A stretch of DNA of 26,598 nt. Origin: a virus. The notes under the pieces are model-generated. The model had not been told where the DNA came from and ran no database searches. It saw only the letters and a list, made by a program, of their open reading frames with translations. Both the position numbers and the translations under genes were made by a program. Positions 23,532-25,868 of this stretch are shown here, in pieces. The stretch's first letter is position 1. Every line of letters starts with the position of its first letter. Location of the stretch: the IMG/VR virus record IMGVR_UViG_3300021142_000156, positions 1 through 26,598 of that record; one strand, 5' to 3'.

Positions 23532-23954
23532 TTAAAATTCCTCTCTGATTGAAATTGTCACGCAGGGCGTGTCGCTGTAATACTTCCGCATTGATACGCT
23601 GATTATCTGTGAGTCGTCTTTGTAGCACACCTCGTTAAGCGCGTCCTCAACACTCTTGAGCATATTCGATAAGTCCGGTTTTTTGGTGTGCCTCATCATG
23701 CCGGACAGCATTTCCGCCTTCGCCTTCTTGGATGCGCTCTTGGGTATCGGCATAAAGAACAGCAGGGACAGTCTTAACGGTGATTCTAGCGGTTCTCTGC
23801 CATTCATCGCCTCTTTACCTGCCTGCATTACAATGTCCTCGTAATTGCGCGTTTTGGCAGGCGTATAAGCCCTTGCGAATCCTCCGCGTGTCGTTACTCT
23901 AGCTCTTCCCTTTGGTACGGGCACACCTTCAACCGTAAACCCAATTTTAATCAT
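23532..23954 (-). CDS. rusA: RusA-family Holliday junction resolvase
   Basis: RusA resolves four-way junctions and branched DNA made during recombination and packaging. The 140-aa frame begins at ATG 23954, behind AAAGGGGTGAATCG, overlapping the methyltransferase stop (ATGA); a longer frame upstream is not needed. The typical start, GFTVEGVPVPKGRARVTTRG, and the active-site block KKPDLSNMLKSVEDALN (residues 91-107) followed by YKDDSQI (111-117) are present. E. coli RusA uses Asp70, Asp72 and Asp91. Here D94 and D113/D114 stand for the first and third, while the second is Ser96, which is noted below. Length and neighbours (ATPase, methyltransferase) fit. Confidence 0.88.
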   Translation of the reverse strand: MIKIGFTVEGVPVPKGRARVTTRGGFARAYTPAKTRNYEDIVMQAGKEAMNGREPLESPLRLSLLFFMPIPKSASKKAKAEMLSGMMRHTKKPDLSNMLKSVEDALNEVCYKDDSQIISVSMRKYYSDTPCVTISIREEF

Positions 23955-24688
23955 CGATTCACCCCTTTGCACAGTTGATAAATTGCTCCCGCTGCCATTG
24001 CAGGAACCCATCCATTGCCAGTGGCTTTGAGTCCGTCCATCCCTCTGGCCACATCATCAGAATCTCTTGGCATCGCGGCGTAGTCATCCGCTGGTAGAGC
24101 CGCATCAATTGCTCTTGTAAATTGCCGTCTGCGTGATTTTTTCGTATCAATGCAAGCGGGTTGCGGAATGTCCAGGCTTTCCAAGATTGCGCTGTCGGTG
24201 TAAGCAAGTAGGAAAATCCGCGCTCGATGGTGTGCCGCTCCAATGGTCGAAGCTCGAAACACTCCCCACCGGACATCAAACCCCATTCCGGCCAAATCTC
24301 TAAGGACTGTTCCAAGTCCTCGAACAGTGAGCATTGGGCTGTTTTCCACAACAACGAGTCTCGGTCCAACTTCGCAAATGACTCGTTTTTGCTCGCTCCA
24401 CAATCCTGATCTAGCACCGTCAAGACCCTTGCCTTTCCCGCACTGGCTAATGTCTTGGCACGGGAAGCCGCCGCTGATAACGTCAACATGTCCGCGCCAT
24501 GGCTTTCCGTCGAATGTCCTGATGTCATCCCAGATAGGGAATTGCTCGATAACTCCGTCTCGCTGTCGGTCAAGAAGGATTCTTCTCGCTCCGGCATCAA
24601 TTTCAACAGCGCAGACGGTGCGCCATCCAAGCAATCCTGCGGCCAACACGCTACCGCCCCCCCCTGCAAAAAGTGCCAGCTCATTCAT
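23951..24688 (-). CDS. C5-cytosine DNA methyltransferase
   Basis: The enzyme transfers a methyl group from S-adenosylmethionine to C5 of cytosine in a target site. In order: motif I FAGGGG (7-12), CAVEID (26-31), motif IV GGFPCQDIS with catalytic Cys77, motif VI as VVVENSP (112-118, ENS instead of ENV), motif VIII-like GAAHHRARIF (150-159) and motif X-like GNGWVPAM (224-231). Only about 60 residues separate VIII and X, so the target-recognition domain is very small. At 245 aa it is short for the family but has all core motifs. No restriction enzyme is next to it, so it is an orphan, probably for protection against host nucleases. The start at 24688 follows GGAGGGAAA and overlaps the previous stop by ATGA. 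Confidence 0.93.
   Translation of the reverse strand: MNELALFAGGGGSVLAAGLLGWRTVCAVEIDAGARRILLDRQRDGVIEQFPIWDDIRTFDGKPWRGHVDVISGGFPCQDISQCGKGKGLDGARSGLWSEQKRVICEVGPRLVVVENSPMLTVRGLGTVLRDLAGMGFDVRWGVFRASTIGAAHHRARIFLLAYTDSAILESLDIPQPACIDTKKSRRRQFTRAIDAALPADDYAAMPRDSDDVARGMDGLKATGNGWVPAMAAGAIYQLCKGVNR
23959..24684 (-). CDS. Alternative-frame protein nested in the methyltransferase gene, 241 aa
   Basis: A second frame, +1 to the methyltransferase, is open for 241 codons from ATG 24684 almost to the methyltransferase end. Its product is Trp, Ser and Leu rich and shows LDRDSLLWKTAQCSLFEDL (107-125), WPEWGLMSGGECF (131-143), LLTPTA (160-165) and MMWPEGWTDSKPLA (210-223). From memory, proteins with this same pattern (WKT.QCSLF...WP.WG.M..GEC... 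TPTA ... GWT) are annotated in other phages, so the frame recurs and is not a one-off. The GGAGG (24697-24693) is eight bases from this ATG and only four from the methyltransferase ATG. It may be a real overlapping gene, or a by-product of methyltransferase conservation. Confidence 0.45.
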   Translation of the reverse strand: MSWHFLQGGAVACWPQDCLDGAPSALLKLMPEREESFLTDSETELSSNSLSGMTSGHSTESHGADMLTLSAAASRAKTLASAGKARVLTVLDQDCGASKNESFAKLDRDSLLWKTAQCSLFEDLEQSLEIWPEWGLMSGGECFELRPLERHTIERGFSYLLTPTAQSWKAWTFRNPLALIRKNHADGNLQEQLMRLYQRMTTPRCQEILMMWPEGWTDSKPLAMDGFLQWQREQFINCAKG

Positions 24689-24954
24689 TTTCCCTCCAAA
24701 TATCGTTGTCGTTTGATCTGCGTGTCAATATCAACCAACTTCAAGCTGTCACACGCTGGGGTTGTGTGGTGAAGGAAAGGACGGTCTATTTTTGTCTGAA
24801 GTTGGCACAAAGCGCGCCCCTGTGCTGCGTGGTCACGCTCAACACTGTCAGTCTTATCAGACTTCCAAAAAACGCAAGTTCCGCACGTTTTAACCTTCGA
24901 TTCCTTCACCGTTGAAAGGTTTTTAACCCTCTCTATCAAATCGCTTGTTCGCAT
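24685..24954 (-). CDS. Hypothetical Cys4 metal-binding protein, 89 aa
   Basis: C24 and C27 (CGTCVFW), C50 (ALCQLQ) and C68 (PACDS) form a likely zinc site, with the rest charged and soluble. The start chosen is ATG 24954 (MRTSDL, behind AAGAAACA); another ATG at 24969 would add five residues. Both lie inside the end of the ATPase gene in a different frame. The stop overlaps the methyltransferase start (ATGA). The family is not named, but small CxxC proteins of this kind are common next to phage recombination genes. Confidence 0.74.
   Translation of the reverse strand: MRTSDLIERVKNLSTVKESKVKTCGTCVFWKSDKTDSVERDHAAQGRALCQLQTKIDRPFLHHTTPACDSLKLVDIDTQIKRQRYLEGK
24692..24697 (-). promoter_or_regulatory. 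Shared Shine-Dalgarno for methyltransferase and nested frame
   Basis: GGAGGG on the minus strand serves two nearby start codons, ATG 24688 and ATG 24684, which open different frames. The later ATG has the more usual spacing. It lies inside the end of the 89-aa Cys4 gene. Confidence 0.7.
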
Positions 24955-25868
24955 TGTTTCTTGACCCATTCAATAGCCGCGCTGTATGCGTTTGCTGGCA
25001 TATTCGACATTACGCCATAACGCTTGAGTAATTTTTCTTCAATCACTTTATGCCCGGATAACAGATCGTTGATTTCTGTAACTTGGTCGACAGTTATCAT
25101 CTCGATAACTTCCAGTTTTGCTCCGCCACCAGCAGCCCATTCAACTATTTTCTGTCCGGATTGTTCATTTACCTGTTTATCCAGTGGGAATAAATGGCGG
25201 TGTTGTTCTTGCAACTTGATCGGTTGCGGGATGCCTGGTCGGTCTGCGGTGAAAAGAAGGCTGGTCGTCAGTTCAAACGGTAGCGCCTTTTCGCAAACTG
25301 GTATCCATCCATCAAGTCCGGTTAGCGATTGTTTAGCTTGGATAACCGTCTTCCCGTTTTCCTTAACCATTTCGATTTTTTGCTCTGCCCGGAAGCATAA
25401 AATAAGGTGCGCTTTAACCTGTAAAAGTGATTGAACCATTTTTTTGTGCGACATTTTTGGTTTTATCCATGCCGCCATTTTCACCATTTCGCGTTTTTTC
25501 CAGTCCTGCCCCGCCATGCGGTCTAGTTCGTCTTCTTGCCAGTCCAGCACCCCGCCGTCACCAGCCCATACGTGAGACATAGAATCTACAACAATAACCG
25601 GATAGCCCGCCTTATCGGCTGCGCGGATTGCCTCAATGTAATTATCAGGCCGGAACGGCGCATGGATTTCGGCATGATCGAAATTAAACTGGTCTGCATA
25701 ATGAAGAGCGCGGCGTGCTTCTGTGTCGATTACAGCAAACGGCTTTCCGTTAGCGATACCTGAAGCAAGGCGCATGGCGGTAAACGTCTTTCCGCTTCCC
25801 GTGCCGCCTATTAGCCCGATAAGAAGCCCTACATTCTCGCGCTTCGCCTTTGTAAATATTACAGCCAT
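24936..25868 (-). CDS. RecA-like P-loop ATPase, possibly Sak4-type recombination protein
   Basis: The 310-aa protein has a Walker A motif GGTGSGKT (residues 21-28), a Walker B-type VIVVDS (91-96), and IDTEARRALHYADQF (47-61) after the P-loop as in RecA-like phage ATPases. The central part (LLQVKAHLILCFRAEQKIEM) continues the RecA core. The C-terminal 70 residues (MITVDQVTEINDLLSGHKVIEEKLLKRYGV) form a small helical domain seen in several phage recombination proteins. With a RusA gene in the same operon, a role in single-strand annealing or strand exchange (Sak4-like) is likely but inferred. It starts at ATG 25868 behind AAAGGAAATATC. Confidence 0.82.
   Translation of the reverse strand: MAVIFTKAKRENVGLLIGLIGGTGSGKTFTAMRLASGIANGKPFAVIDTEARRALHYADQFNFDHAEIHAPFRPDNYIEAIRAADKAGYPVIVVDSMSHVWAGDGGVLDWQEDELDRMAGQDWKKREMVKMAAWIKPKMSHKKMVQSLLQVKAHLILCFRAEQKIEMVKENGKTVIQAKQSLTGLDGWIPVCEKALPFELTTSLLFTADRPGIPQPIKLQEQHRHLFPLDKQVNEQSGQKIVEWAAGGGAKLEVIEMITVDQVTEINDLLSGHKVIEEKLLKRYGVMSNMPANAYSAAIEWVKKQCEQAI

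Follow-up and report, generated by a model that had tools for sequence, protein, structure and literature searches.

In 1995, Lee, Kam and Shaw reportedly found the small chain of the methyltransferase M.EcoHK31I (176 amino acids) to be encoded inside the gene for its large chain (309 amino acids), in another reading frame, and both chains to be needed for activity. M.EcoHK31I is a two-polypeptide C5 methyltransferase for the target YGGCCR; its large chain possesses motifs I-VIII, motif X and the predicted target-recognition domain (TRD), and its small chain possesses motif IX (PMC3404938). A second two-polypeptide enzyme, M.AquI (CYCGRG), has a smaller chain with the distal variable region and motifs IX-X (PMC3404938). 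Out-of-frame coding in phage methylases was also reported in a 2025 paper, which described a hidden HNH endonuclease associated with the ShiLan domain (PMC11855218).

We analyzed a virus record of 26,598 bases (the window, meaning the whole stretch of DNA) in which a C5-cytosine methyltransferase gene on the minus strand, alpha (245 codons, positions 24688-23951), is overlapped by a second open frame on the same strand, beta (241 amino acids, positions 24684-23959), offset by +1. M.EcoHK31I is the nearest precedent for this pair. Going by its description, its large subunit is like alpha in having motifs I-VIII and X and lacking motif IX, and beta is like its small subunit, which is likewise said to be read in a different frame within the gene of the large subunit. 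Unlike in M.EcoHK31I, the overlap in the window is nearly total (241 of 245 codons, with starts 4 nucleotides apart). M.EcoHK31I is a member of a restriction-modification system, whereas the window pair is a phage orphan; no partner endonuclease for alpha and beta was present in the list of open reading frames of the window. Moreover, target recognition is seemingly in beta here, but the predicted TRD of M.EcoHK31I is in the large subunit (PMC3404938). Like beta, the ShiLan HNH endonuclease is an additional protein read out of frame from a phage methylase gene; however, it is a mobile insertion with a homing endonuclease in a different frame, whereas beta is spread over the conserved sequence of the methylase itself.

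Beta is already represented in protein family databases, and gene callers chose the beta frame in many genomes. Sixty-one beta proteins were compared with phrog_1008, phrog_35493, and phrog_26627, and 60, 59, and 54 of them matched, respectively. The initial annotation of this locus had stated that motifs of the second frame recur in proteins of other phages, which agrees with the 60 of 61 aligned +1 proteins that matched phrog_1008, a family labelled "DNA methyltransferase". These three families are listed as stand-alone proteins ("DNA methyltransferase" or unknown function), with the frame overlap absent from the description. A search of freely accessible papers found no account of the overlap in phage methyltransferases; a prior description elsewhere is possible. 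Compared with the known split enzymes, two features are new: the genes overlap over their full length from twin starts (ATGAATG), and the arrangement is widespread. We propose, with a probability of roughly 85%, that these same-strand, +1-offset genes on one stretch of DNA encode two subunits of one DNA (cytosine-5) methyltransferase.

Layout and motifs of the alpha/beta locus

Alpha matched phrog_363 (E = 6.8e-55) and PF00145 (E = 1.5e-28), and beta had a profile match to phrog_1008 (E = 1.9e-13) over residues 41-206. The twin start ATGAATG occupies positions 24682..24688 of the minus strand, with the alpha ATG at 24688-24686, a TGA at 24687-24685, and the beta ATG at 24684-24682. A Shine-Dalgarno sequence common to both starts, GGAGG (24693..24697, minus strand), is 4 nucleotides from the alpha ATG and 8 nucleotides from the beta ATG, and the median distances from the end of the Shine-Dalgarno core over the homologues were also 4 and 8 nucleotides. 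The coordinates, the 241-codon +1 frame with its ATG four bases on, and the spacing of GGAGG to both starts had all been given correctly in the initial annotation.

Two neighboring reading frames were noted. A 94-amino-acid open reading frame in the beta frame (24685-24969) terminates at the TGA directly before the beta ATG, and no family match was found for it. In about 30 of 80 homologues, the beta frame likewise continued without a stop for over 60 codons on the 5' side of this TGA. On the other side, a RusA-like resolvase reading frame at 23535-24011 extends in its longest form into the alpha C-terminus; its likely start is the ATG at 23954, overlapping the end of alpha.

The assignment of alpha as a C5-cytosine methyltransferase is based on the PF00145 match and on five motifs, all on the minus strand: motif I (LFAGGGGS, 24650..24673, in invariant alignment columns), motif IV with PCQ (GGFPCQDIS, 24446..24472, including the catalytic Cys77 and invariant in 60 sequences), motif VI with EN (VVVENSP, 24335..24355, E115 and N116 being invariant), motif VIII with RxR (HHRARIF, 24212..24232, R157 being invariant and H153 and R155 nearly so), and motif X with GN (ATGNGWVPAMA, 23993..24025, placed by alignment). 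The ENS of motif VI and the HHRAR of motif VIII are slightly off the usual ENV and QxRxR. No in-frame motif IX was found in alpha by inspection, and the PF00145 match reached only position 182 of the 324 positions of the profile, that is, through motif VIII.

In beta, two conserved stretches stood out on the minus strand. The first is LLTPTA, a PTPTA motif (24190..24207), in which T162 and P163 are at least 90% conserved. The second, TPRCQEILMMWPEGWT (24034..24081), has conserved residues P203, E207, M210, W212, P213, W216, and T217 and is the proposed equivalent of motif IX. By eye, the family form of this stretch, LNPxWVEWLMGWPxGWT, looks similar to classic motif IX (RRLTPRECARLMGFPD). When the beta profile was compared with classic enzymes, the single best local alignment fell on motif IX (15 columns, P = 0.12, probability 0.5%). 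Composite alpha-beta-alpha chains were scanned with Pfam, and the match was neither raised nor lengthened over shuffled controls, a negative result that counts against a readily obtained motif IX match. Identification of motif IX in beta by sequence alone is weak.

Neither Pfam nor NCBIfam gave a meaningful match for the 61 beta proteins. The best hit of a PDB profile search with beta (E = 0.028) was to an unrelated protein and was taken as chance. AlphaFold2 models of full-length beta (58 sequences, with three rows from annotated phage records left out) and of the beta core (80 sequences) were poor (pLDDT 53 and 64, respectively; pTM 0.26-0.27). Approximately 100 residues at the N-terminus of beta are weakly conserved and were modelled without structure. 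Lack of a confident predicted fold for beta alone would fit an obligate subunit, and proves nothing.

Openness of and selection on the +1 frame

The chance of such an open frame under equal base use had been put at about 1e-5 in the initial annotation, with the remark that composition raises it. For the window gene alone, synonymous codon shuffling within the gene gave 3.2 expected stops and a probability of 0.010 that the first 90% is stop-free, which is only moderately unusual. The homologues were more informative. We used 86 alpha genes from IMG/VR and annotated phages, with 32-100% identity to the window alpha and gene GC contents of 0.37-0.62. The +1 frame was stop-free over the first 90% in 81 of these genes compared to a shuffle expectation of 0.36 genes, and 13 stops were observed compared to 402 expected, although the loci share descent and these shuffle counts are therefore not independent. 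Stops in the +2 frame numbered 1295, compared to 1111 expected. Among the few genes interrupted in the +1 frame are the most distant of the set (L106, L108, and L109), in which the stops were N-terminal and the last two thirds of the frame was open.

Similarity of the +1 peptides was assessed in 400 divergent pairs with alpha identity under 60%, and exceeded the synonymous-shuffle null with z values of 23, 35, and 46 for the N-terminal, core, and C-terminal parts, respectively. Similarity in the +2 frame was also above the null in this test, by less, as is expected because the nucleotides are constrained. Four-fold degenerate third positions differed at frequencies of 0.52, 0.46, and 0.36 in the same three parts, compared to 0.69-0.71 in classic methyltransferases at similar identity. 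The initial annotation had suggested comparing the openness of the +1 frame in homologues with codon-shuffled controls and looking for reduced synonymous variation, and the results of both comparisons were in favor of a second coding frame.

A switch of constraint between the frames was found in the clade of the window, where the substitution pattern changes over alpha codons 158-205 (24074..24217, minus strand), the proposed target-recognition part of beta. Identity over these codons was 0.89 for beta compared to 0.65 for alpha. First positions of the alpha codons, which are third positions of beta, differed at a frequency of 0.336, and third positions of alpha, which are second positions of beta, at 0.080. 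The wobble position over this stretch is that of beta; the codons preceding 158 show the alpha pattern. Constraint passes from one frame to the other just after alpha motif VIII, where a target-recognition domain should begin.

Codon use at the start was also constrained. In genes beginning M-N-E-L, Asn2 was AAT in 80 of 80 and Glu3 was GAG in 80 of 80, and of the remaining Asn codons in these genes 46% are AAT. The beta ATG requires AAT and not AAC at Asn2, so the beta ATG was kept in all 80. Among the 81 genes with the beta start at offset +4, beta begins with ATG in 80; the alpha start is GTG or TTG in three. Beta is a real gene. By computation, selection acts on both frames, the two starts are conserved, and alpha and beta occur together. 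The earlier suggestion of a conserved overlapping pair with a real second product was supported by the open +1 frame, the synonymous constraint, and the similarity at the protein level.

Motif IX, natural fusions, and alternative explanations

We surveyed all 76 PF00145 genes of 35 genomes, the genomes having been chosen for containing an alpha/beta pair. In 37 genes the +1 frame was open and motif IX was absent in frame, and 34 of these matched beta at E<=1e-16; the other 39 had +1 stops together with an in-frame motif IX, as determined by full-length Pfam match or inspection. Openness of the +1 frame and presence of motif IX in frame were therefore mutually exclusive in this sample of 76, in which motif IX was assigned by eye in 13 genes and two open cases of the 37, L335 among them, call for caution. 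In all 26 genes with a full-length Pfam match, +1 stops were as frequent as expected and beta was not matched. Ten long genes with a split Pfam match had motif IX in frame by inspection. Among the 40 short genes with an early-ending Pfam match, 37 had no +1 stop in the tested part, and the three exceptions (L336, L381, and L385) had motif IX in frame.

The cautionary case L335, from a Pseudomonas chlororaphis genome, is a short methyltransferase without in-frame motif IX and with no +1 stops compared to 4.3 expected. Its +1 frame did not match the beta profile, and it may represent this arrangement in a more distant form.

Large plasmids of Vibrio and Alteromonas encode a methyltransferase of approximately 400 amino acids (members L270, L280, L281, L282, L283, L284, and L285) in which alpha, with motifs I-VIII and X, is followed by a beta-like domain in one chain ending GGLHPEFCEVFMGYPAGWTEL. 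In L270, the fusion member examined, the +1 frame was full of stops. Profile comparison of beta with this fusion family aligned 112 columns (E = 2.5e-6, probability 89%). No relatives of the plasmid fusions were found in viral contigs or phage records.

Motif X was in the alpha frame in 200 relatives, solely in the beta frame in 3, and truly in both frames in none; a motif X match in L080 was a PTPT repeat and was rejected. The 3 relatives are from Gordonia phage Gmala1 (L107), Paraburkholderia (L200, identical to L371), and a Spirochaetia assembly (L244). They are staggered, alpha ending after motif VIII and the beta frame having a motif-IX-like stretch followed by motif X, and in this they resemble M.AquI. 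In the window pair, unlike in M.AquI, alpha retains motif X and the beta gene is nested instead of staggered.

The beta profile alone, searched against viral and GTDB contigs, returned 268 loci. Alpha was present at all 268, and the two overlapped in +1 at 267; at L267 the matched alpha and beta domains abut rather than overlap. No beta without alpha was found in these contigs. Given the mutual exclusion between an open +1 frame and motif IX in frame, the natural fusion of alpha with a beta-like domain in plasmid enzymes, and the relocation of motif X to the beta frame in three loci, beta appears to be part of the same enzyme as alpha, and is probably its missing target-recognition/motif-IX subunit.

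The initial annotation had instead suggested that the second product might modulate the methyltransferase or act against host defense. Overprinted viral proteins are often accessory in role, and a separate protein (a methyltransferase regulator or an anti-restriction/anti-defense factor) overprinted on a self-sufficient methyltransferase would be consistent with beta being a real coding frame without a Pfam or NCBIfam match. Such a protein is improbable, however, since the open beta frame is confined to alpha genes without motif IX, which a complete classic enzyme needs. Motif IX has been placed in the small domain of classic C5 methyltransferases (PMC3404938). The exclusion of motif IX, the fusion of a beta-like domain to alpha in plasmid enzymes, and the ability of motif X to shift into beta favor a structural half of the enzyme over a modulator, and beta was never seen without alpha. 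An anti-defense identity for beta was rejected because no independent beta was found in the viral and GTDB contigs.

Alternatively, a programmed +1 ribosomal frameshift could join the N-terminal part of alpha to the C-terminal part of beta in one chain. In the three staggered relatives, alpha motifs I-VIII followed by beta motifs IX-X would give the classic order, and some relatives have a tract of 9 to 11 G at alpha codons ~83-87, of which the G9 form joins both frames. The order I-VIII-IX-X cannot come from one shift in the window and 200 relatives, however, since motif X returns to the alpha frame there, and a simple frameshift fusion was rejected on the frame of motif X. Furthermore, beta is open from the start of the gene with its own ATG, neither of which a shift near motif VIII would require, and the window has no G tract. 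We consider a frameshift very unlikely. As for the tract itself, a run of 10-11 G was found in L005, L006, L011, L012, and L014, and one of 9 G in L018, L019, L020, and L021; the longer run leaves both frames intact, and the shorter joins the alpha N-terminus to the beta C-terminus. These differences in length could represent a phase-variable tract or homopolymer sequencing error.

A rival explanation, in which the composition and codon usage of the methyltransferase leave the +1 frame open incidentally and no second protein exists, would agree with the P of only 0.010 for the window gene alone, but has almost no probability and was rejected on the stop counts over the 86 homologues, the +1 stops at the expected rate in 26 of 26 full-length classic methyltransferases, the shift of the wobble position to the beta frame, and the absolute choice of the Asn2 codon.

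Proposed two-subunit enzyme and its distribution

If alpha and beta are two subunits of one methyltransferase, alpha would constitute the catalytic and AdoMet domain, with motifs I-VIII plus X, and beta would constitute the small domain, responsible for target recognition and for the motif IX function. Ribosomes at one Shine-Dalgarno sequence may initiate at either of the two ATGs four bases apart, and both subunits would therefore be produced from one message. Another possibility is termination-reinitiation coupling from the upstream 94-amino-acid reading frame, the TGA of which adjoins the beta ATG. Alpha and beta would then assemble into a heterodimeric orphan enzyme that methylates phage (or prophage or plasmid) DNA. 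Phage methylases are known as protection against host restriction, and by analogy the methylation predicted here probably serves to resist it.

Many phage, prophage, and plasmid methyltransferases that are annotated as single proteins would, if this explanation is true, be non-functional as annotated, and cloning of the annotated reading frame in recoded form would destroy the enzyme. The two-subunit explanation would also account simply for the label "DNA methyltransferase" on phrog_1008, a family without a recognizable domain. The role of the hidden frame is testable by one silent mutation. The locus family is a deeply sampled natural case of two enzyme subunits sharing DNA, with a measurable hand-over of constraint between frames, and should be useful for studying the origin and stability of overlapping genes.

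The alpha/beta loci span many bacterial phyla as well as Archaea. The two-frame arrangement recurs in hundreds of relatives from phages, prophages, and plasmids, and gene annotation usually displays only one of the two proteins. It is likely that a very large class of C5 methyltransferases of mobile elements in bacteria and archaea are obligate two-frame enzymes, with catalytic and specificity subunits in separate frames. If so, few same-strand overlapping gene pairs in DNA viruses would be as long or as widespread, target specificity would evolve in the hidden frame, and most databases would hold only half of each enzyme.

Variants were observed among the relatives. Beta has tandem WPTPTA-type modules in L043, L080, and L371, and the gene is correspondingly longer in both frames; these are perhaps repeated target-recognition modules. 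In L387, from Verrucomicrobiota, alpha has an altered motif IV (GDPCQANS) and VVRENP as motif VI, and the middle part has diverged in both frames.
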